From the NCBI GenBank assembly GCA_015523465.1, contig WAKF01000071.1, positions 1-39,677 on the forward strand: DNA of 39,677 bases, in the 5' to 3' direction. Below are positions 6,073-35,132 of the stretch, one piece after another; position 1 is the stretch's first letter; every line of letters starts with the position of its first letter. The DNA comes from Aeropyrum sp. (GTDB taxonomy: Archaea > Thermoproteota > Thermoprotei_A > Sulfolobales > Acidilobaceae). Below the pieces are notes generated by a model. The model saw nothing but the letters and a program-made list of their open reading frames with translations. It made no database searches and was not told the origin of the DNA. Both the position numbers and the translations under genes were made by a program.

Positions 6073-6978
6073 CTAAGCTAGATTATCTTCTATTGCTAAT
6101 CCGCAGATGGAGGTTCTAGCGATGGTATCTATTAGGTAAGCGGCGCTTCTTAGATATGCTGCAAACTCTCTATCACTAGCCTTTAGGGCGTCATCTGCGA
6201 GTTTAGAGCTCTCTAGGGATGCTGTCTCTATCCTCTTAGTACTATGGCTTGAAAGGCCTCCCAACAGCTCTAGGAGGACCCTTCTAAGCTTCTCCAGCAG
6301 CATCCTCCTCTCTTCTACAGGTAGTCGTGTAGAGGTTTCTATGACCTCGGATAGGATGCGTGGAAGGGTTATCATTGCCCCTAGGGCCATGCTGGCTTTA
6401 GAGGGCTCACAGAAGCTTGTTTCGGCCTTCGAGGCGCTCCTTAAGATGTCCTCTATTACTGTGCCAGCCTTTGAAATAGCGCTTCTAGCGGCCTCGAGGT
6501 TGTTGGAGTAAACCATATCTATAGCACTATTTATAATGTTAGCTAGCTTCTTGAACTGGTAGTGTAAAGGTGCCTCTTCTCCCTTGCTCAACTCTATAAC
6601 TACCATGTCATCGGTTACTACTACATCCTCTATTTTCTCTACAGTATCAGACTTGACGCTCTTAACAGAGCCCCTAAGGGTTTTAGGTATCTTATCATTG
6701 TATATAAGTATCTTATCGTAACCGTGAATGTAAGAACATGATACCATAAGCTTTATGTTATCTGGCTTAGAGAGAGTATGAGTAAGCTTTAGGGAAAGGC
6801 TCCTAGAATTGGAGGGTATATGGGCAGGCATGATCTTAAGATACTCGCCCTCATCAACAACTATAAGGTTATCCCCCGCCTTAACATTCATACGCTTAAC
6901 CCAGTTCTTAGGGAGGGTTACGACAAGGCTACTCCCCCCAAGCTTTTGGACACGCCTAGTATGCATTACAGTAGACAA
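6073..6978 (-). CDS. AbrB/SpoVT domain plus PhoU domain regulator (copy 2)
   Basis: This 301-aa paralogue of the protein at 536-1597 has the same N-terminal DNA-binding domain (residues about 8-54, RRVQKLGGSSLVVTLPKNWV) and a helical PhoU-like remainder. The TTG start at 6978 is favoured by GGTGG 6 nt upstream; an in-frame ATG is four codons further in. Its likely promoter (TTATC-containing AT-rich stretch near 7016-7028) overlaps an inverted repeat at 7022-7038, which could be an operator. As for copy 1, the phosphate link is by family name only. Confidence 0.85.
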   Translation of the reverse strand: MSTVMHTRRVQKLGGSSLVVTLPKNWVKRMNVKAGDNLIVVDEGEYLKIMPAHIPSNSRSLSLKLTHTLSKPDNIKLMVSCSYIHGYDKILIYNDKIPKTLRGSVKSVKSDTVEKIEDVVVTDDMVVIELSKGEEAPLHYQFKKLANIINSAIDMVYSNNLEAARSAISKAGTVIEDILRSASKAETSFCEPSKASMALGAMITLPRILSEVIETSTRLPVEERRMLLEKLRRVLLELLGGLSSHSTKRIETASLESSKLADDALKASDREFAAYLRSAAYLIDTIARTSICGLAIEDNLA

Positions 6979-7118: not shown

Positions 7119-8060
7119 CTAGTATATTTCGTTTCCTCCCGCGTTAAACGTGTTTCTCTTATTTCTACACAAAAGCGCTTTGAAGAGTCTTAAAGCAGCT
7201 TCGGGAGCGGGCCTAGAAGAGCTATTATTCCTATCAACCTCTACTATCATGTGTTCATCATCGTCTGTCAGGCCGTAAGACTTACTCTTAATTACGCCGT
7301 CATCCGGGTCTACAGGCACAGTCTCCATGAAGGCTATGGTTTCCGAGGAACCAAGGTCTAAAATGCCGCCTACAAGTATTATGGGTACACCTACCTCCCT
7401 CGAACGCGCTATTAGGAAGTTGTTTATAATGTTTGTATCCATAGTTATTATGCCGCCATCGTACTCCACTATCCTTCCTAGGACCTCGCTGTTATAGGGC
7501 ATCATGCCCCCCACTATCACGTTAACGTCATAGATCTGCATGGCTCTAAATAGTTCTGGGAGAGCTAGGTCCTCATCTATGAAAACCCCCACAGACATGT
7601 TACCTTTGAGCTTGAAGACTCCAGGCTCTCTGCCATAGCTTATCCCAGCCTCTACCTCGTCTCTCGTCAAGTGGACCTTCCTATACTTACCCCACACACC
7701 CCCCTCAGGCGAGGTTATAACGGTTGTGAGGTAAAGCCTAGGACCCGCCCTCTCTATTATAGGCCCGCCCATAAGATAGACTCCATATTCCCAGCTCCAC
7801 TTACTCATAAAGTTAACCGAAGGTCCTACCGAGCCAGGCCTCTCAGTAACCTTTTCCGCAAACTCTCTAAGCTTCGTTTGGACCTTAGTCTTGTTGTAGT
7901 AACCTATTATAGGGCCCGTAAAGGGGTACGAGGGAAGAACAATCATGTCTACAGGGCCTGGAACCTCGTTCATAACTCTCTCGATCAGCATGCCGAGCCT
8001 CCGAATATTACTCCTTTTAGCGCCCATCTTGACTCTAGCGTGTAAGACTATTATCCTCAC
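7119..8060 (-). CDS. Nitrilase-fold protein lacking catalytic Glu and Cys (pseudoenzyme)
   Basis: The 313-aa protein has the carbon-nitrogen hydrolase fold: LPSYPFTG near 42-49, KYRKVHL at 125-131, and VGVFIDEDLALPELF at 157-171. Active members carry Glu after FP in the first motif, Lys in the second and Cys in the third. Here Ser44 replaces the Glu and Asp162 replaces the Cys, while Lys128 remains, so amidase or nitrilase chemistry through a thiol is not expected. It starts at GTG, 6 bp after the reverse gyrase stop, with its ribosome binding site (GGGTGAGGGGGT) inside the end of that gene, so the two are very probably one transcript. A binding, scaffold or regulatory role is inferred; its partner could be the reverse gyrase. 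Confidence 0.82.
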   Translation of the reverse strand: MRIIVLHARVKMGAKRSNIRRLGMLIERVMNEVPGPVDMIVLPSYPFTGPIIGYYNKTKVQTKLREFAEKVTERPGSVGPSVNFMSKWSWEYGVYLMGGPIIERAGPRLYLTTVITSPEGGVWGKYRKVHLTRDEVEAGISYGREPGVFKLKGNMSVGVFIDEDLALPELFRAMQIYDVNVIVGGMMPYNSEVLGRIVEYDGGIITMDTNIINNFLIARSREVGVPIILVGGILDLGSSETIAFMETVPVDPDDGVIKSKSYGLTDDDEHMIVEVDRNNSSSRPAPEAALRLFKALLCRNKRNTFNAGGNEIY

Positions 8061-8066
8061 ACCCCC

Positions 8067-11000
8067 TCACCCCTCCCTAGGCCTCTCCATAGCCATGGAA
8101 ACACACGCTATGAAAGACTTCTTCCAGCGTGAGACTGCGCCCGCCTCCGACGCCCCAAGCTTCTTCCTACCCTCACGGTTTATAAGAGCCCCGCCTCCCG
8201 CAGCCTTCTCCGCTTCCACGATCAAGCTTGCTAGGGGCGCAACCTCGCTGTAGACTCTAGCCAGTACATCCCTTCTACCAGCTTCACCTCTCTCTATAGC
8301 GTCCATCTGGTCCTGGAGCTGGGAGGTCCTCTCCTCGGAGACCATGTCTGGGATCCTCATTAAAACACTCATTATGCTGGGGTCGTCAATGTCGTATAAT
8401 GCGCCGGGGGTTCTTAGTAGGTCGTTGAGGTACTTGCACGTCCATATACCTCGTCTCCGCGCCACTAGGGCATTTAGTTGGGGAGGCTCGGCCACATACC
8501 CCCTTGAAAGCAGCACCTCGATTATCTTGGCGTACGTGCTAGGCCTTCCGATCCTCTTTCTCTTCATCTTTTGGACAACCTCGCCCTGCGTGTAGTAGAA
8601 GGTTAGGTTACCCTTACCCACTCTAGCCTCTGCCAAGGCTACAGTTTTCCCTTTCTCTTCAAGCTTAGATAGCTCTGGGTAAACGTTTACTCCCTCCCTA
8701 AAGATGAGGGCAAAGCCCATAGACGCCTTGTCACCATCAACCCCTACGGCTACCGGCACGTCGATGGTGAAGGAGTAGCCTGGGGGTATGTAGGGGTCCG
8801 CAGAAACCCTCACCTTGAGCTGCTTCACCCTAGCCTTCCTCATCTGGCTAGCCATGAACCTCCTAAATATGAGGTCGTAGAGCCTTGCATGCCTCTCAGT
8901 AAACCTCTCCAACTCCAACTCTCCCTCAGCTATCAAGGCTTTAAGAGTCTCTGAGTCTACGGGCCTCACAGGCCTTATGGCTTCGTGAGCCCCGCCCTCA
9001 CCCCAGGTCCTTGGAGCGAATATGTCCTCAAGCCTGAGCCCCTCCCTCTCAGCTAGGTTGCTAAGCCACTCACGGGCCACGAAAATGCCTCTCTCGCTTA
9101 CCCTCGTAGAGTCTGTTCTATGGTATGTTATAAGGCCCCACTCGAATAGGTCCTGAGCGAGCCTCATAGTCTCGGGAGCGCTGAGTCTCAGATACCTGTT
9201 AGCGTCTAGGAGTAGAGTATCGGTAGTATAGGGTGACGGAGGGTCCACTTCCACGATTTTCGAGTCTAGGACCTCCAGCACCACTTCTACACGGTTTGTC
9301 TTAGCTTTCTTAAAGTAGTCTCTAAAGTTCCTCACTATCTCGTCAAGGCTCTTTTTGTCTACTATGAAGACGATTCTGGATCCCTCAAGCCTAGCACCGC
9401 CCGCTCCATCTTTACCCTCCTCTGGCAAGTACTCTCTAAGGTACTCTCTAAGCCTTTCCTCATCTAGCCTATACTCTGGAGGGAGCCCGCAGAGCGAGTG
9501 GTTAGAGCGGCCTCCCATTATCACGTGGATTGCAGCCTCTATCCTAGGAGGCCTATAAACTATATTCAAAGGCCTCGAATCTCCCAGGCTCACGGTTATC
9601 TCTGCCTCATCGATCCGTCTCCTAGCAAGTATACTCTTATTTACAATCCACTTCAACACGGGGGTTTGAACTCTACCAGCGCTCAGGTTGAAGTTAGGCC
9701 TATACCTAAATCCTAGCCTTTCTAGGACCTCCGTTTCCCTATCTCCCCTTGTAATGGGCTTACACATCCTTTCTTCATAGTATGGCAGGGTCTTTTCAAG
9801 TTCTTGCCCTTCTTCTGACGATGGCGACGCGGAGATAGACGCTTCGCTAGCGCAGTACACCTTCGGCCAAAAGTGGCACCATAAGAGTGGCGATATGGTG
9901 AATCCTATCCACCTATCCTCAACTCTCCTAACTATCTGAGCGTCAACAAGGTTCCAGTCAAAGCTCCTCGGGTTCTTGAGTGCTTCTAGTATAGCCTTCT
10001 TGGTTACCTCGTGGAACTCCAGTCTCCTATAGTTCCTGTTATATGGTATTAGTGTTAAGAGTACATCCCACCCTATCTTTTCTCCCTCAGTATCCGGATC
10101 CGTCCCGATGAGAACCTCGTCAGCCTCCCATGCTAGGAGGCGTAGGTCCTCTAGAGTGGACTTGGAGTCTAATATGTCAGCCCAGTTGCACCACTTCCTC
10201 GGGCACTTATCAAGCCCTTCATCTACGTATTGATAGCCGCAGGGCCCACACCGTTTAAGGGTTGTATAAACTGCTATGAAGTCCTCGTTAGCGCTCCCAG
10301 GCCTTTTAACCCTGAGAACGCCGAAGACGTCGCCCATCAGAGTTCCTAGCTCCTTGGGAGCATTCTCGAATAGCACCTCCTCCTCCACGAGAGCGCTCTT
10401 AGCAAGGTCGTATACATGGCCCCCGCTCGCAGCAACCATAAGTATCCTATCTCCCGTAGACACCTCGTAGACCCTAAGGCCCCCAGGCATTATCCTCACG
10501 CTAGGCTGACCGAAGAACCTTGCTATAGTCCTAGCCTTGTTAGGCGACTCTACTACGAGGAGGGTGCTCTTAACAAGGTTACCTATCTTAGCTCCAGCCT
10601 CCCTCAGCCTTACAACCTTCCTCCTCTCTTCTTCGATGGCGTCTCTAACGCTCTCTAGGCTCCTACCATCCTCAAAGAACCAGGAACCATCCTTCCTGTA
10701 AAGTCTTAGCCATTCAGTCTCGACTAGGAGCCTTAACCTAGACTTTAGACCCTCGAACACCCTTTCATCGTCTACAACTACAATGCTGAGGCCGAGAGTT
10801 ATCCCGCCTGCGTAGAGCCTGCTAGTCCTGCCACTAGCTTGAACGTACGTGGGGGCGTCAGGGACTAGGAGCACGGGCTTCCCATCCTCCTTCGATACCC
10901 CTACCTCGAGGGTGCTAAGAGCCTCCCAAACATACTCCTTACCTAACGCTTCCCTTAGAAGCCTGTATGCCTCTAGTATGGTGGAGACTGGATGGGATAG

Positions 11001-12944
11001 GCTTGTTTCCCCTTTAACAGGTCCCCTCAGGTAGCTTAAAGCCTCTTCCGCTAGCATGCGGAGCCTCTGAGGACTCGCCTCCCTAACTAGCCTCCTAAGC
11101 CTCGCTGCAAGCCTCCTAGCCTTCTGCTTAAACTCCTCTAGCTCCCTAGCCTCCTCCTTGCTAAGCTCCCTTGGAGGCCGGGCCTCTGCTAAGAGCGTCA
11201 GCAGCCTTAGGAGCCTTGCCGGGTACGGGTCTCCTATGTCGCTTGTGAACCTATGTCTAGGCACTCCAGCGAAGATCGCATATTTAGCTCTAGTAGGCAT
11301 GTCCAAGCCCCTGACAAGGAGGCCATAGTAGGTTGCAACGCCTACTATAACGTTGACTTCCCCCTCTTTGAACTCGTCTAGGATCTTAGTGTACTCCCTA
11401 GACTTTAGCTTGGCGTGAACAGCCCTCGCCTTGACCCCCACACGCTCCTCTATTAGTTTCGCTAGCTCCTCAGCCTTCTCAGCACCTTCATCCATAGGCA
11501 CAAAGACCAGTATCCCATCCCTCAGCCTCGACACAAGGTCTAAGACTATCCCTTCTACACCCTCGGGCCCGGGGAGCACATACGAGTCTATTATATTGCG
11601 TAGGCCGATATCACCGCCTCCACCAGCCTCGAAACCGAGTAGTACTCTAAACAGCCTGACTCTCCTACCCCTGGGCCTTCCTGTGGCAGTACTTACTACT
11701 AGTGAGGCAGCATTACTCCTAGCCTTCTCTAGCTCTTTCCGGATCGACTTTATCCTTGCCTTAACCTTCTCTGTTAACTCTTTCGATAACATGTTATGCT
11801 CTAATTCAAGTTTTTCTAGCTCGCTTTCTACGGTCTTTAATTCCTCCTCAAGCCTCTTATTACCCTCATTCTTCTTCGCGTTACTCCTCCTCTCAACCTC
11901 CCACCTCCTCCTTCTAAGCCTCTCAATCCTCCTTCTCAAGGCTATGAGTCTCGACTCAAGCCTAGCCTCCAGCCTTATGAGGGATAGTAGCTCCTCGCCT
12001 AGCTCTAGGTGGTGTTGTTCGAATCCTACTAGTTTTAGTATTGCGTCCACGCTCTTTGAACTCTTAATGACGGCGTCAACGTCGTCTGCAAATACAAGGT
12101 TAAGCCCAACACCATTCTCCTTCAAGCCCTTAGCTATACCCTCAGCGTTCTTCACCATGTAGGCTGCAGTAGTTATTGCTATATGGAAATCACCTCTTCT
12201 AAGTTTAGCATCTAGCTCTTCCCTAGCCTTGGGGGAAAGCCTCCCAAACCTTCCAAGAACAGTTATGTGACCGCATCCGGTTTTCTCAGCTATCTGTAAC
12301 ACCTTCTCATACAGGTTCTTAGCTAACGTGCTAGTGGGTACAACGAAGAAAGACCTACCGTCCTTACGGCACGCCAGGTATACTGCTACTACAGCCCCGA
12401 AGGTAGTTTTCCCCGTGCCTGTAGGAGCTATAATGCTAAAGCTATCCCCCCTCACGATCCTCTTAATCCACGTTCTCTGAGCGCCCCAAGGCTGAGAGCC
12501 TATAGCCCTCTCGAAGAACCTCTCTAGCTCTTCCGCCTCGGCATGAAGACTATATATTCTTTCGTAACCCCGGGCATTCTCGCAAATCTTCAAAGCCGAT
12601 GTTACAGGGTTCCCGTCGTCGCTCGCTCCAAACCTTTCTAGGACCTCCCTTGCAGCTTCGACATCCCTTTCAACGGCTACCTTCCTGCAGACACTGAGAA
12701 TGCCTTCTCCGTTGTTTAGAGCCTCATATATGGCTTTTACAGGGATTTTCTCTCCATACTCATTAATCAGTTTTGCAGCCTCTTTGCTAGGAAGGCATCT
12801 AGGACATGGTAGTCCATAATAAAGCCTTGATTCCGTGTTAGAGCGGCCGCAGTTAGGGCACGAGTACCTATAGATACCTCTGCTCCAAGAAAGAGATTCT
12901 AAGACGGTTTTAACGTTAGCAGTGTATAGTCCCAAACGCATCAC
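8067..12944 (-). CDS. rgy: Reverse gyrase, oversized form (1625 aa)
   Basis: ATP-driven enzyme that adds positive supercoils to DNA. Order: N-terminal zinc finger (Cys29, 32, 47, 50), helicase-like half with Walker A APTGTGKTT (173-181), DDVD (287-290), STATGRPRG and QASGRTSRL (702-710), then the type IA topoisomerase half with Toprim VVESPNKAR (Glu799), DPDTEGE (949-955), second zinc finger (Cys899, 902, 914, 919) and the catalytic Tyr1274 in LITYHRTDST. Usual lengths are about 1050-1250 aa; this one is about 400 longer. The surplus is spread out: a longer N-terminus, a charged coiled coil at about 315-410, extra sequence at 1023-1085 and 1135-1225, and a longer tail. No intein signature is seen. 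The usual DPDREGE is DPDTEGE. Start is GTG (12944) or the next codon ATG. First gene of a pair with the nitrilase-fold gene. Confidence 0.95.
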   Translation of the reverse strand: MMRLGLYTANVKTVLESLSWSRGIYRYSCPNCGRSNTESRLYYGLPCPRCLPSKEAAKLINEYGEKIPVKAIYEALNNGEGILSVCRKVAVERDVEAAREVLERFGASDDGNPVTSALKICENARGYERIYSLHAEAEELERFFERAIGSQPWGAQRTWIKRIVRGDSFSIIAPTGTGKTTFGAVVAVYLACRKDGRSFFVVPTSTLAKNLYEKVLQIAEKTGCGHITVLGRFGRLSPKAREELDAKLRRGDFHIAITTAAYMVKNAEGIAKGLKENGVGLNLVFADDVDAVIKSSKSVDAILKLVGFEQHHLELGEELLSLIRLEARLESRLIALRRRIERLRRRRWEVERRSNAKKNEGNKRLEEELKTVESELEKLELEHNMLSKELTEKVKARIKSIRKELEKARSNAASLVVSTATGRPRGRRVRLFRVLLGFEAGGGGDIGLRNIIDSYVLPGPEGVEGIVLDLVSRLRDGILVFVPMDEGAEKAEELAKLIEERVGVKARAVHAKLKSREYTKILDEFKEGEVNVIVGVATYYGLLVRGLDMPTRAKYAIFAGVPRHRFTSDIGDPYPARLLRLLTLLAEARPPRELSKEEARELEEFKQKARRLAARLRRLVREASPQRLRMLAEEALSYLRGPVKGETSLSHPVSTILEAYRLLREALGKEYVWEALSTLEVGVSKEDGKPVLLVPDAPTYVQASGRTSRLYAGGITLGLSIVVVDDERVFEGLKSRLRLLVETEWLRLYRKDGSWFFEDGRSLESVRDAIEEERRKVVRLREAGAKIGNLVKSTLLVVESPNKARTIARFFGQPSVRIMPGGLRVYEVSTGDRILMVAASGGHVYDLAKSALVEEEVLFENAPKELGTLMGDVFGVLRVKRPGSANEDFIAVYTTLKRCGPCGYQYVDEGLDKCPRKWCNWADILDSKSTLEDLRLLAWEADEVLIGTDPDTEGEKIGWDVLLTLIPYNRNYRRLEFHEVTKKAILEALKNPRSFDWNLVDAQIVRRVEDRWIGFTISPLLWCHFWPKVYCASEASISASPSSEEGQELEKTLPYYEERMCKPITRGDRETEVLERLGFRYRPNFNLSAGRVQTPVLKWIVNKSILARRRIDEAEITVSLGDSRPLNIVYRPPRIEAAIHVIMGGRSNHSLCGLPPEYRLDEERLREYLREYLPEEGKDGAGGARLEGSRIVFIVDKKSLDEIVRNFRDYFKKAKTNRVEVVLEVLDSKIVEVDPPSPYTTDTLLLDANRYLRLSAPETMRLAQDLFEWGLITYHRTDSTRVSERGIFVAREWLSNLAEREGLRLEDIFAPRTWGEGGAHEAIRPVRPVDSETLKALIAEGELELERFTERHARLYDLIFRRFMASQMRKARVKQLKVRVSADPYIPPGYSFTIDVPVAVGVDGDKASMGFALIFREGVNVYPELSKLEEKGKTVALAEARVGKGNLTFYYTQGEVVQKMKRKRIGRPSTYAKIIEVLLSRGYVAEPPQLNALVARRRGIWTCKYLNDLLRTPGALYDIDDPSIMSVLMRIPDMVSEERTSQLQDQMDAIERGEAGRRDVLARVYSEVAPLASLIVEAEKAAGGGALINREGRKKLGASEAGAVSRWKKSFIACVSMAMERPREG

Positions 12945-31204: not shown

Positions 31205-34200
31205 ATGGGGGCTGTGAAGGGGGTCTATAGAGGGTTCTGCCCTAACTGCAGGGGGCCCGTCGAGGAGGATAGACTGGCTAAGGGGCTACCATGTAGAAAG
31301 TGTCTTCCCAGGCCTGCGGGCGGCGATGTCGATTCGATTGTCCGTGCTCTCTCAGCTAGGGGTAGGCTAGGAGGCTACTATTGGATCTGGAGGCTTGAGA
31401 AAGACCTGGAGGAGTTCGAGAGGTTCTTTGAAGAGAGGACTGGGCTCAGGCTTTGGAGCGCCCAAAGGAGCTGGGCTAAGAGGCTACTGAGGGGCGAGAG
31501 CCTAGCCATAATAGCTCCTACGGGAGTCGGGAAGACTACTCTAGTGAGCACCTACGCCTCATTTACGGCTGAGAAGAGGGGGTGGAGGGTCCTTTACCTA
31601 GTACCTACTGAGAACTTAGTGAGGCAGGTTTCAAGTAGGCTCGAGGGCCTAGCTAGGGCTAACATCTACTACTACTACTCAAGGCTTAGGCCTTCCGCTA
31701 GGGAGGAGGCTTTAGAGAGGATAGGGCGCGGGGGTCCCGGGATAATAGTCGTTACTACTGGCTTCCTCCAGAGAAGGTTTAGCCTGCTAGCCTCTGGAGG
31801 CCCCTTCAACCTCGTCGTTGTAGATGACGTGGATAGCTTGCTGAGGAATAGCAGGAACGTCGAAAGGGTACTATCTCTCCTAGGCTTTAGCGAGGACCTA
31901 GTAGCTGCTGCGCTGAGACTAGTGGAGGCTAGGATCCAGCTCTACCAGGCGCTCACCCTCGGCTCAACAAGGATTGAGGGCCTTCAGAAGAAGGTGGCTG
32001 AGCTTGAAGACGAGGTTAGAAGAGGCCTTTCTACCTTGGCTAGGGTAGGGCAACTCGTCATAGCCAGTGCCACTGGGAGGCCTCGAGGCTATAAGCACCT
32101 TGTATTTAGGGAGCTGCTCGGCTTTGAGGTGGGGGGCGGTAGCGACTATCTGCGTAACATTCTAGACGCCTATAGAATCTGTAGGGACCCGCTAGCGTGC
32201 CTCAGAGACCTAGCCTTAGAGCTGGGTGACGGAGTCATAGTGTTTGTATCCCAAAGGCTAGGGAAGGAGTGGGCTAGGAGGGCTGCTGAAGTCCTAGAGG
32301 AGTCGGGGCTTAGGGTGGCGCTAGCTCTAACGGGCTCTCGTAGGCCTGTAGAGGAGTTTGCTAGTAGCAAGGCCAAAGTGCTGGTGGGGGTCGCTAGCAG
32401 GTATGGAGTTATCGTTAGGGGTTTAGACTTGCCCGAGAGGGCTAAGTATGCTCTATTCCTCACAGCACCAGGCCTTAGGCTGAGGGCCTCTGAGGCCCTG
32501 CTAAACCCTAGGAGGCTACTCAGGCTCCTCGACTACGCGTCGTCACGGGGGGAAGACTGGGCTAGGGACTACTATGAGAGGATTGCAAGGGCTCTAGATA
32601 AGGTTAGGGACCCCACAATACTCGTGGCAGCAGCTAAGGGTAGCTTTAAGGCTGAAGGGTGGCTAGCTGAGGCTGCATCGCTGCTACTCGAAGCTTCGAG
32701 TACTGCTGGAGACTGGGCTGTTGGAGAGGCTAGGAAGTCTGGCGGCGTACTTAGGGTTGGTAGCTTCGTTGTTGACTCGCAGGGTTATGTAACGGTACCT
32801 GACGCCCTCACCTACCTACAGGCTAGCGGTAGGACGAGTAGGCTCTACAAGGGTGTTATGACTTTTGGCGTCAGCGTAGTATTCGACTTTAATGAAGCCT
32901 ATGTGGAAGCCCTCTGGGAGAGGCTTAGGTGGGTATCGGGAACCAGCTTCAAGGAGCTGGGGGAGGTTGACTTAGAGGAAGCTAAGAGGAAGGTAGAGGA
33001 CTCTAGGAGGGGTCGTGGTAAGAAGGTTAATGTGAAGACAGTGTTGCTCGTGGTTGAGTCACCTACAAAGGCTAGGACCATAGCGTGGTTCTGGGGGAGG
33101 CCTGGGAAGAGGAGGGTCGGGAGGCTAACGGTTTACGAGGCTAGTGTAGCCGACGAGGAGGCCGGAGTCGTGTATATACTCAACGTTACTGCTACTAGAG
33201 GCCATGTGACAGATCTTGCCGTTGACGCTCCAGATACGAGGTATGGGGTTAAGGTCGTCAATTCCACCTTGAAGCCCATATATGGGACTATAAGGAGGTG
33301 CCTGGAGTGTGGATGGCAGTTCGTGGCTGAGAGTAGTGTATGCGTGAGATGTGGCTCCCCAAGGATCATTGATAGCATGAGCGTCGTAGACCTCCTAAGG
33401 AAGCTCGCTGTAGAGGTGGACGAGGTTGTTGTTGCTACGGACCCTGACAGGGAGGGTGAGAAGATAGCGTGGGACGTAATGCTGGCGATAAAGCCTTACA
33501 ACCAGAACGTGAAGAGAGGGCGGTTCCACGAGGTTACTCCTAAGGCCGTGCTCGAGGCTCTGAGGGGGGCCGGGCCCTTCGCTTTAAGCCTGGTTAAGGC
33601 TCAAGAAGCTAGGAGGATCGTTGATAGATGGATAGGCTTTAGCCTCAGCAGCCACTTGTGGACTGTCTATGGGAAGCCCTGGCTAGGGGCTGGCAGGGTT
33701 CAAACGCCCGTTCTAGGGTGGATTGTAGACGCTTATAAGAAGTGGAAGGATGCTCGTGGATACTACGCGATCTTGAGGTTAGAGAGCGGGGGAAGGCTCT
33801 CAATATTTGCTAGTGAAAGGGAGGAAGCTGAAGATGTGGCTAGAGCTAGGGACGTCGAGGTCACGAGCGTTGAGGCTTACTGGGAGGAACGGCAGCCCCC
33901 GCCACCCTTCACTACAGACACGCTACTCTATGAAGCCTCTACGAGGCTGGGAGTCAATGCTACTATAGCTATGAGGGTAGCGCAGGACCTCTTCGAGTGG
34001 GGTCTCATAACATATCATCGAACGGATTCAACCAGGGTTAGCTCAGCGGGAGTCGCTGTAGCTAGGACCTGGCTTGAGAAGGCAGGATTGGCTAGCCTTT
34101 TCAGGCCAAGATACTGGGGCGAGGGGGGTGCACACGAGGCAATACGCCCCACAAGGCCCCTAGACTCTAGGGAGCTTGAGAGGGCTGTGCTAGACGGCTC

Positions 34201-34840
34201 TATAAGGATCGCTGGTAAACTGACACGTCTACACCTGGCAGTCTACGACATGATATTTAGGAGGTTCGTTGCGAGCCAGATGGCGCCTGGGAAGGTGTTA
34301 GTGGTAAGAGCCTCTCTTAGCGTGGGAGGCAAGCGCGTTGAGGTGGAGGGTATAGCAGGGGCGAAGGGAGGATTCGTGGAAGTCTACCCGCCACAGACCT
34401 CTGAGTGGCTCTCAAGGCTAAAGCCCGGGGTTAGGCTGGCTGTCGAGGATTCTAGGGTGGTTAGGGGTAGTAGGGAGAGGCTTTTGAAGAGTGGCGACGT
34501 GATCAGGCTTATGAAGGAGCACGGGATAGGGAGGCCTAGCACCTACGCTAAGGCGATAGAGGCCAATATGAGGCACGGCTACGTAATCGAGAGTAAGAAG
34601 AGAAGGTTCCTCATACCTACCAGGCTTGGACGCGAGGTCTACGTCTACCTGTCTACAAGGTTCCCTGAGCTCATCTCCGTAGAGACTAGCCGGAGGCTGG
34701 AGGAGGAGCTTGACGCTATAGAGAGGAGTGGGAGGGGCGTGTACTCGATGCTTCAGAGGGCGTGGGCTCTTATTGAGGGTAAGCTAGAGGAAGCTTCAGC
34801 CACAGCTAGCATAGGCGGGGAGGCTGAGGCTAGGACCTAG
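31205..34840 (+). CDS. rgy: Reverse gyrase, standard size (1211 aa)
   Basis: Second reverse gyrase of the window. It has an N-terminal zinc finger (Cys12, 15, 30, 33), Walker A APTGVGKTT (104-112), DDVD (207-210), SATGRPRG, QASGRTSRL, Toprim VVESPTKAR (Glu618), DPDREGE (746-752), second zinc finger (Cys699, 702, 713, 716) and catalytic Tyr937 in LITYHRTDST. All key residues are intact. ATG start with GGGTGAG 5 nt upstream. It lacks the coiled coil and the topoisomerase inserts of the 1625-aa paralogue. The last 11 bp overlap the convergent Alba gene. Confidence 0.96.
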   Translation: MGAVKGVYRGFCPNCRGPVEEDRLAKGLPCRKCLPRPAGGDVDSIVRALSARGRLGGYYWIWRLEKDLEEFERFFEERTGLRLWSAQRSWAKRLLRGESLAIIAPTGVGKTTLVSTYASFTAEKRGWRVLYLVPTENLVRQVSSRLEGLARANIYYYYSRLRPSAREEALERIGRGGPGIIVVTTGFLQRRFSLLASGGPFNLVVVDDVDSLLRNSRNVERVLSLLGFSEDLVAAALRLVEARIQLYQALTLGSTRIEGLQKKVAELEDEVRRGLSTLARVGQLVIASATGRPRGYKHLVFRELLGFEVGGGSDYLRNILDAYRICRDPLACLRDLALELGDGVIVFVSQRLGKEWARRAAEVLEESGLRVALALTGSRRPVEEFASSKAKVLVGVASRYGVIVRGLDLPERAKYALFLTAPGLRLRASEALLNPRRLLRLLDYASSRGEDWARDYYERIARALDKVRDPTILVAAAKGSFKAEGWLAEAASLLLEASSTAGDWAVGEARKSGGVLRVGSFVVDSQGYVTVPDALTYLQASGRTSRLYKGVMTFGVSVVFDFNEAYVEALWERLRWVSGTSFKELGEVDLEEAKRKVEDSRRGRGKKVNVKTVLLVVESPTKARTIAWFWGRPGKRRVGRLTVYEASVADEEAGVVYILNVTATRGHVTDLAVDAPDTRYGVKVVNSTLKPIYGTIRRCLECGWQFVAESSVCVRCGSPRIIDSMSVVDLLRKLAVEVDEVVVATDPDREGEKIAWDVMLAIKPYNQNVKRGRFHEVTPKAVLEALRGAGPFALSLVKAQEARRIVDRWIGFSLSSHLWTVYGKPWLGAGRVQTPVLGWIVDAYKKWKDARGYYAILRLESGGRLSIFASEREEAEDVARARDVEVTSVEAYWEERQPPPPFTTDTLLYEASTRLGVNATIAMRVAQDLFEWGLITYHRTDSTRVSSAGVAVARTWLEKAGLASLFRPRYWGEGGAHEAIRPTRPLDSRELERAVLDGSIRIAGKLTRLHLAVYDMIFRRFVASQMAPGKVLVVRASLSVGGKRVEVEGIAGAKGGFVEVYPPQTSEWLSRLKPGVRLAVEDSRVVRGSRERLLKSGDVIRLMKEHGIGRPSTYAKAIEANMRHGYVIESKKRRFLIPTRLGREVYVYLSTRFPELISVETSRRLEEELDAIERSGRGVYSMLQRAWALIEGKLEEASATASIGGEAEART

Positions 34841-35132
34841 GCTCGCCCCCTCCGGCGCTACCCTCAACAGCCTCTACCTTGACGAGCACGTAGGGTATCT
34901 TCTCCTCGTCCTTCATGACTACCCCGATCTTCTCTATCCCGACCCTGATGTCTAGGCCGCTAGTCTGAAGGGTCTCCCTAGCCCTGTTGATTGAGTCGAA
35001 GAGCTTGCATATGCTCCTTCCCGTGGCTGTGAGCAGCGTCTCCCCCTTCTCGGTCACTTCCAATATTATCCTGCGAGCGTAATCCTCTATATCGCCCTCA
35101 TCGGCTACGACTATAGCCCTTCTCCCCGCCAC
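34830..35132 (-). CDS. Alba-family DNA/RNA-binding protein
   Basis: A 100-aa protein with the Alba core: TATGRSICKLFDSINRARE matches the loop-helix region that carries the acetylated Lys and dimer contacts in Alba (ARGRAISKAVDTVE in Sulfolobus-like sequences). It lacks the extended N-terminal tail and has an acidic extension at the end. Alba coats DNA and RNA in archaea and is a substrate of Sir2 in Sulfolobus. The Lys in the SICK stretch would be the closest counterpart to a modifiable site. GTG start; GGGTG 7 nt upstream. Convergent with the reverse gyrase gene. Confidence 0.8.
   Translation of the reverse strand: MAGRRAIVVADEGDIEDYARRIILEVTEKGETLLTATGRSICKLFDSINRARETLQTSGLDIRVGIEKIGVVMKDEEKIPYVLVKVEAVEGSAGGGEPRS

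Follow-up and report, generated by a model that had tools for sequence, protein, structure and literature searches.

The window analysed here (the whole stretch of 39,677 nucleotides, from Aeropyrum sp.) carries two genes for reverse gyrase, the hallmark enzyme of hyperthermophiles, which overwinds DNA at high temperature and of which most Crenarchaeota keep two. Directly downstream of one of them, on the same strand, lies a gene of nitrilase fold that we call NIT; an Rfam scan of the window returned two tRNAs only. The features referred to below are the following.

8067-12944, minus strand: TopR1-like reverse gyrase, 1,625 aa (TIGR01054, 1,176 bits; tree placement)
8067-8077, minus strand: Shine-Dalgarno-like GGGAGGGGTGA, overlapping the 3' end and the stop codon of the gyrase gene (sequence seen, function putative)
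7119-8060, minus strand: NIT, nitrilase-fold gene predicted to be catalytically dead, 313 aa, GTG start (open reading frame and translation)
7929-7931, minus strand: codon of Ser44 at the catalytic Glu position (LPS44, against LPE in canonical nitrilases)
7740-7754, minus strand: ERAGP motif, residues 103-107, invariant in the alignment of 36 homologues
7677-7679, minus strand: codon of Lys128, the sole triad residue kept in NIT of the window (GKYRK aligned with GKYRK of 3ivz)
7575-7577, minus strand: codon of Asp162, which takes the place of the nucleophile Cys (GVFIDEDLALPE against GVMICFDWFFPE)
31205-34840, plus strand: second, TopR2-like reverse gyrase, with no linked nitrilase homologue (start codon at 31205 or 31214)

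Membership of NIT in the nitrilase superfamily is well founded. The window protein matches PF00795 (CN_hydrolase) with 48.5 bits (E=9e-13; curated cut-off 23.2), as do 47 of 49 family members at E<=0.01. With the window protein and 35 homologues as input, AlphaFold2 gave a model with a mean pLDDT of 93.6 and a pTM of 0.90, and its top 50 Foldseek matches in the PDB belong without exception to this superfamily with its alpha-beta-beta-alpha fold, the best being a Pyrococcus amidase, N-carbamoylputrescine amidohydrolase, Nit2 and D-carbamoylase. The Pyrococcus nitrilase/amidase (PH0642; 3ivz, 1j31, 6ypa) is like NIT in fold (Foldseek E 5e-17, target-normalised TM-score 0.75), and at several positions that structure the fold (N18, P43, E103, R127 and E169) NIT keeps the residue; NIT of the window differs from it in lacking the catalytic Glu and Cys, in an extended C-terminus and in being linked to the reverse gyrase gene (rgy). 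The archaeal nitrilase profile NF040852 gives the window protein 39.2 bits against a cut-off of 500. With N-carbamoylputrescine amidase (AguB, TIGR03381; 5h8k) NIT shares the fold but not the triad, and TIGR03381 matches 30 of 36 NIT homologues at E<=0.001, the window protein not being among them. As modelled, NIT is a nitrilase scaffold that has been retained with its chemistry lost.

At the three positions of the Glu-Lys-Cys triad the window protein has S44, K128 and D162; in the alignment with the P. abyssi and P. horikoshii nitrilases K128 falls on the lysine of KYRK and D162 (in GVMICFDW) on the nucleophile site. The sequence-only reading had called this protein a dead nitrilase with Lys128 as its last triad residue, and both the diagnosis and the codon positions of Ser44 and Asp162 proved correct. 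The loss is moreover a trait of the whole order, since none of the 80 distinct rgy-linked NIT proteins (all loci fetched) has Glu or Cys at these sites. Homologues away from rgy that keep Glu and Cys would, in that reading, have spoken against a partnership; the unlinked NIT homologues also lack both residues, and the relatives with a Glu-Lys-Cys triad in the same set (n=17) are never rgy-linked.

What stands at the former catalytic sites is rather different from one site to the other. The Glu site of the 80 linked proteins is occupied by S (38), A (16), P (9), Y (9), Q (6) or H (2), and the Cys site by D or E in 68, with Lys and D/E occurring together in 68 of the 80. The acid is absent in all 8 linked proteins without Lys (families f3 and f2) and in 4 of the 72 with Lys, counts which rest on few independent events. 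Because loss of the Lys goes with loss of the acid at the Cys site, a structural Lys-Asp/Glu pair is suggested, which, to judge from the aligned residues, has probably replaced the former catalytic triad. All three triad positions are changed in f2 and f3. The ERAGP motif and Lys128 are retained in most members, and across 49 diverse members P168 and G231 are the only invariant residues, therefore no shared chemistry or pocket is left in NIT.

Regarding its distribution, NIT homologues are present in 34 of the 40 related genomes searched and occur throughout the order, Sulfolobaceae included, nearly everywhere downstream of rgy and on the same strand. The adjacency survey proposed by the sequence-only reading used an rgy-based sample of 40 genomes, unbiased by NIT, where NIT adjoins 29 of 32 TopR1 genes, as counted by hand from the coordinates and with the linked, longer gyrase taken as TopR1 in genomes outside the tree described below; it took the family profile to detect two highly divergent cases in f2. 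The exceptions are one genome of family f7 (G029), in which about 25 kb separate NIT from TopR1, and two f6 genomes that have no NIT. In the rgy-based search of Sulfolobaceae, NIT was found downstream of one gyrase in 28 of 28 genomes, and this gyrase is the longer of the two where both are intact. Many of the sampled genomes are metagenome assemblies; complete single-contig genomes, such as G002, G004, G148 and G250, show the same linkage.

The two genes are also tightly packed, as had been pointed out for the window, where NIT starts 6 nt after the gyrase stop codon (8067-8069) with the Shine-Dalgarno-like sequence inside the gyrase gene. This holds order-wide: the gap from gyrase stop to NIT start has a median of 7 nt, and 57 of 69 pairs either overlap (16) or are separated by 0-30 nt (41). 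A fusion of NIT and TopR1, looked for as Rosetta-stone evidence, was not found, and a plasmid tblastn search returned nothing but ordinary distant nitrilases. With about ten families covered, the pair has the conserved gene adjacency expected of an accessory protein of reverse gyrase. NIT is a family of nitrilase-fold pseudoenzymes with a rewritten catalytic site, which has stayed with TopR1 throughout an archaeal order and over many archaeal families; a functional link with TopR1 is likely.

The identity of the linked gyrase was examined by phylogeny and by published epitopes. In a tree of 64 gyrases all NIT-linked gyrases, including the one beside NIT in the window, fall into one clade (SH-aLRT 98), and the other type, TopR2, is never linked to NIT; a linkage to TopR2 was rejected on this tree. 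Two peptides have been used to raise TopR1-specific antibodies, and a TopR2 peptide was published likewise (PMC4183072). The linked gyrase of a Saccharolobus-like genome (G326, locus L223) matches the two TopR1 epitopes 15/15 and 15/15, and the unlinked gyrase of the same genus resembles the TopR2 peptide (11/15 in L229); in the first Sulfolobaceae genomes the TopR1 epitope match failed, apparently because they belong to other genera. From the exact matches in Saccharolobus and the single clade it follows that the NIT-linked gyrase is TopR1, the orthologue of the Sulfolobus/Saccharolobus enzyme. As an independent check, SiRe_1581 of S. islandicus is TopR1 (PMC5535833) and SiRe_1582 is CDC48 (PMC5682000), with which the gene order CDC48-TopR1-NIT, seen in several loci, is consistent.

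The TopR1-like gyrase of the window has intact helicase, TOPRIM and active-site Tyr motifs. It had been described as oversized, and its 1,625 aa indeed exceed the range of other TopR1-like genes (about 1,246-1,465 aa); however, only the sister genome G003 (a 1,891-aa frame) also lies above this range, and the extra length is therefore not a general trait of the pair. An oversized gyrase as the explanation of NIT was rejected, normal-sized TopR1 genes carrying NIT too. TopR1 of the window lineage (window 8067-12944; L021:329-6001) has many insertions and a long branch with its motifs intact, the largest insertions relative to the A. pernix-like G004 being 64 and 47 aa.

NIT is under strong purifying selection and shows no decay. 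Its frames are open, and pairwise dN/dS ranges from 0.026 to 0.10 in six species pairs: 0.026-0.029 in the Aeropyrum-like and Saccharolobus pairs, 0.071 between the window and G003, and 0.05-0.10 in the Caldisphaera-like and Acidilobus-like pairs, both of which are without TopR1. TopR1 itself gives 0.095 in Saccharolobus, above NIT in this single pair with both measured. All these ratios are approximate, as some dS values are high. NIT is likewise kept in the Acidilobus/Caldisphaera clade (G009, G015, G021 type) and in G027, lineages that have lost TopR1 and are all without a gyrase of its clade, and family f6 has TopR1 without NIT. The joint loss expected of an accessory protein and its partner was accordingly not seen, at least two lineages and f6 departing from it. 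As to rates, those of NIT and TopR1, compared over 29 taxa and controlled with EF-2 and AlaRS, covary weakly (partial r 0.19-0.39 depending on branches and controls), and over all branches EF-2 and AlaRS covary with NIT equally to or above TopR1.

The TopR2-like gyrase of f6 (G028, G038; L143, L145), the only family with TopR1 and no NIT, is shortened to a frame of about 1,100 aa. The remaining gyrase of G027 (L152) and a gyrase of G034 (L141) fall among the outgroup sequences, which may reflect horizontal replacement, and in G027 NIT is retained as an orphan.

TopR1 is the temperature-responsive gyrase, which controls supercoiling with temperature (PMC8185306). Because NIT has been retained order-wide in a short unit with TopR1 and without catalysis, a binding role is suggested, and because of the function of TopR1 we place NIT as its regulator or stabiliser. 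We propose that NIT, a nitrilase-fold protein of ancient origin and without catalysis, came to occupy the second position in the transcription unit of TopR1 no later than the common ancestor of the order; a single mRNA would serve both proteins, their translation being coupled, and NIT would act through contact with a macromolecule. The most likely target is TopR1 itself, of which NIT would be a regulatory or stabilising subunit and whose temperature-dependent supercoiling it may tune. To NIT as a candidate non-catalytic, protein-binding regulator or stabiliser of TopR1 we assign a probability of about 0.5. The sequence-only reading had likewise proposed a partner or regulator of the topoisomerase; the order-wide adjacency to TopR1 fits this, and the survival of NIT in lineages without TopR1 does not. 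A narrower form, which we regard as possible but less likely than not, makes NIT a dedicated regulatory subunit about as old as TopR1 in the order, helping to explain why TopR1, and not TopR2, responds to temperature; if this is true, a pseudoenzyme of metabolic origin was recruited to the control of DNA topology.

The retention of NIT without TopR1, and of TopR1 without NIT in f6, leaves two readings: either NIT acts on TopR2 or in some other process as well, or its function is a separate one. The latter is the main rival: NIT could have a function of its own apart from TopR1 mechanics, for example in another complex, and share the operon through a useful co-regulation by temperature or growth, or by hitch-hiking, which is possible but somewhat unlikely in our judgement. 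Synteny elsewhere around rgy bears on it in both directions. NIT, looked for downstream of rgy in sister orders, was not found; in the sister order of G101 an archaeal NMN adenylyltransferase (motif GRFQPFH; TIGR01527 match in L298) adjoins rgy in 17 loci, mostly directly downstream (L155, L295, L297, L298, L300, L302, L303, L305-L314), a conserved pair of another kind, which shows that the slot is able to hold an apparently unrelated gene, and the convergent gene downstream of TopR2 is conserved too, in 21 of 29 taxa. On the other hand, the most common gene upstream of TopR1 is found in at most 8 of 23 taxa (11 of 29 for the gene upstream of TopR2), NIT adjoins TopR1 over about ten families (the corresponding 24 of 24 in this comparison is a biased figure, the TopR1 loci being partly chosen via NIT), and a neutral passenger would be expected to separate from TopR1 more often.

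The remaining possibilities concern the old active site. A sensor of a small amide ligand had also been suggested in the sequence-only reading. Such a small-molecule sensor, which would take up an amide or polyamine-like compound in the old pocket, leave it unhydrolysed and pass a signal to TopR1, agrees with the closest families, archaeal nitrilase and N-carbamoylputrescine amidase (the latter matching 30 of 36 members), and with the ERAGP motif and Lys128 of most members, but even the Lys is lost in f2 and f3, where all triad positions are changed, and with P168 and G231 alone invariant the pocket residues are not conserved family-wide, so that we consider it improbable. A neofunctionalised enzyme, with the Asp/Glu at the old Cys site as nucleophile or base together with Lys128, could account for the K plus D/E of 68 linked members; yet residues change freely at the former Glu site (S, A, P, Y, Q, H), and in f2, f3 and some f9 members the gene stays in place without K or acid, which leaves this idea very improbable. 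As for NIT being a pseudogene in decay that travels with TopR1, the loss of catalytic residues is all that would point to it, and it was rejected by the open frames with a dN/dS of 0.026-0.10 in the six species pairs, besides the near-universal presence of NIT across the lineages of the order; we give it next to no credence.

A known interactor of reverse gyrase is the translesion polymerase Dpo4, which binds it and is reportedly inhibited by it (PMC11946384); Dpo4 differs from NIT in not having a nitrilase fold. Full-text searches of openly accessible papers, covering rgy together with nitrilase or carbon-nitrogen hydrolase, TopR1/TopR2, pull-downs and the locus tags of adjacent genes, turned up no account of a partner of this kind, which agrees with the sequence-only reading in knowing of no reverse gyrase accessory protein of this fold, and the NIT-TopR1 pair is apparently unreported. 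NIT could matter for published in vitro studies that used recombinant TopR1 by itself, and in genetically tractable Sulfolobus it would offer a direct handle on how TopR1 alone tracks temperature.

Other neighbours of the two gyrases were also noted. A protein with an AbrB/MazE-like N-terminal domain (window 6073-6978, minus strand) is encoded after or near NIT in several Acidilobaceae, the loci L021, L043 and L127 among them, and a gene resembling it lies also at 536-1597 of the window. The small convergent gene next to TopR2 (window 34833-35132, minus strand; loci L179-L197) looks Alba-like by eye, with no NCBIfam match, and AlbA lies upstream of TopR2 in 11 taxa.
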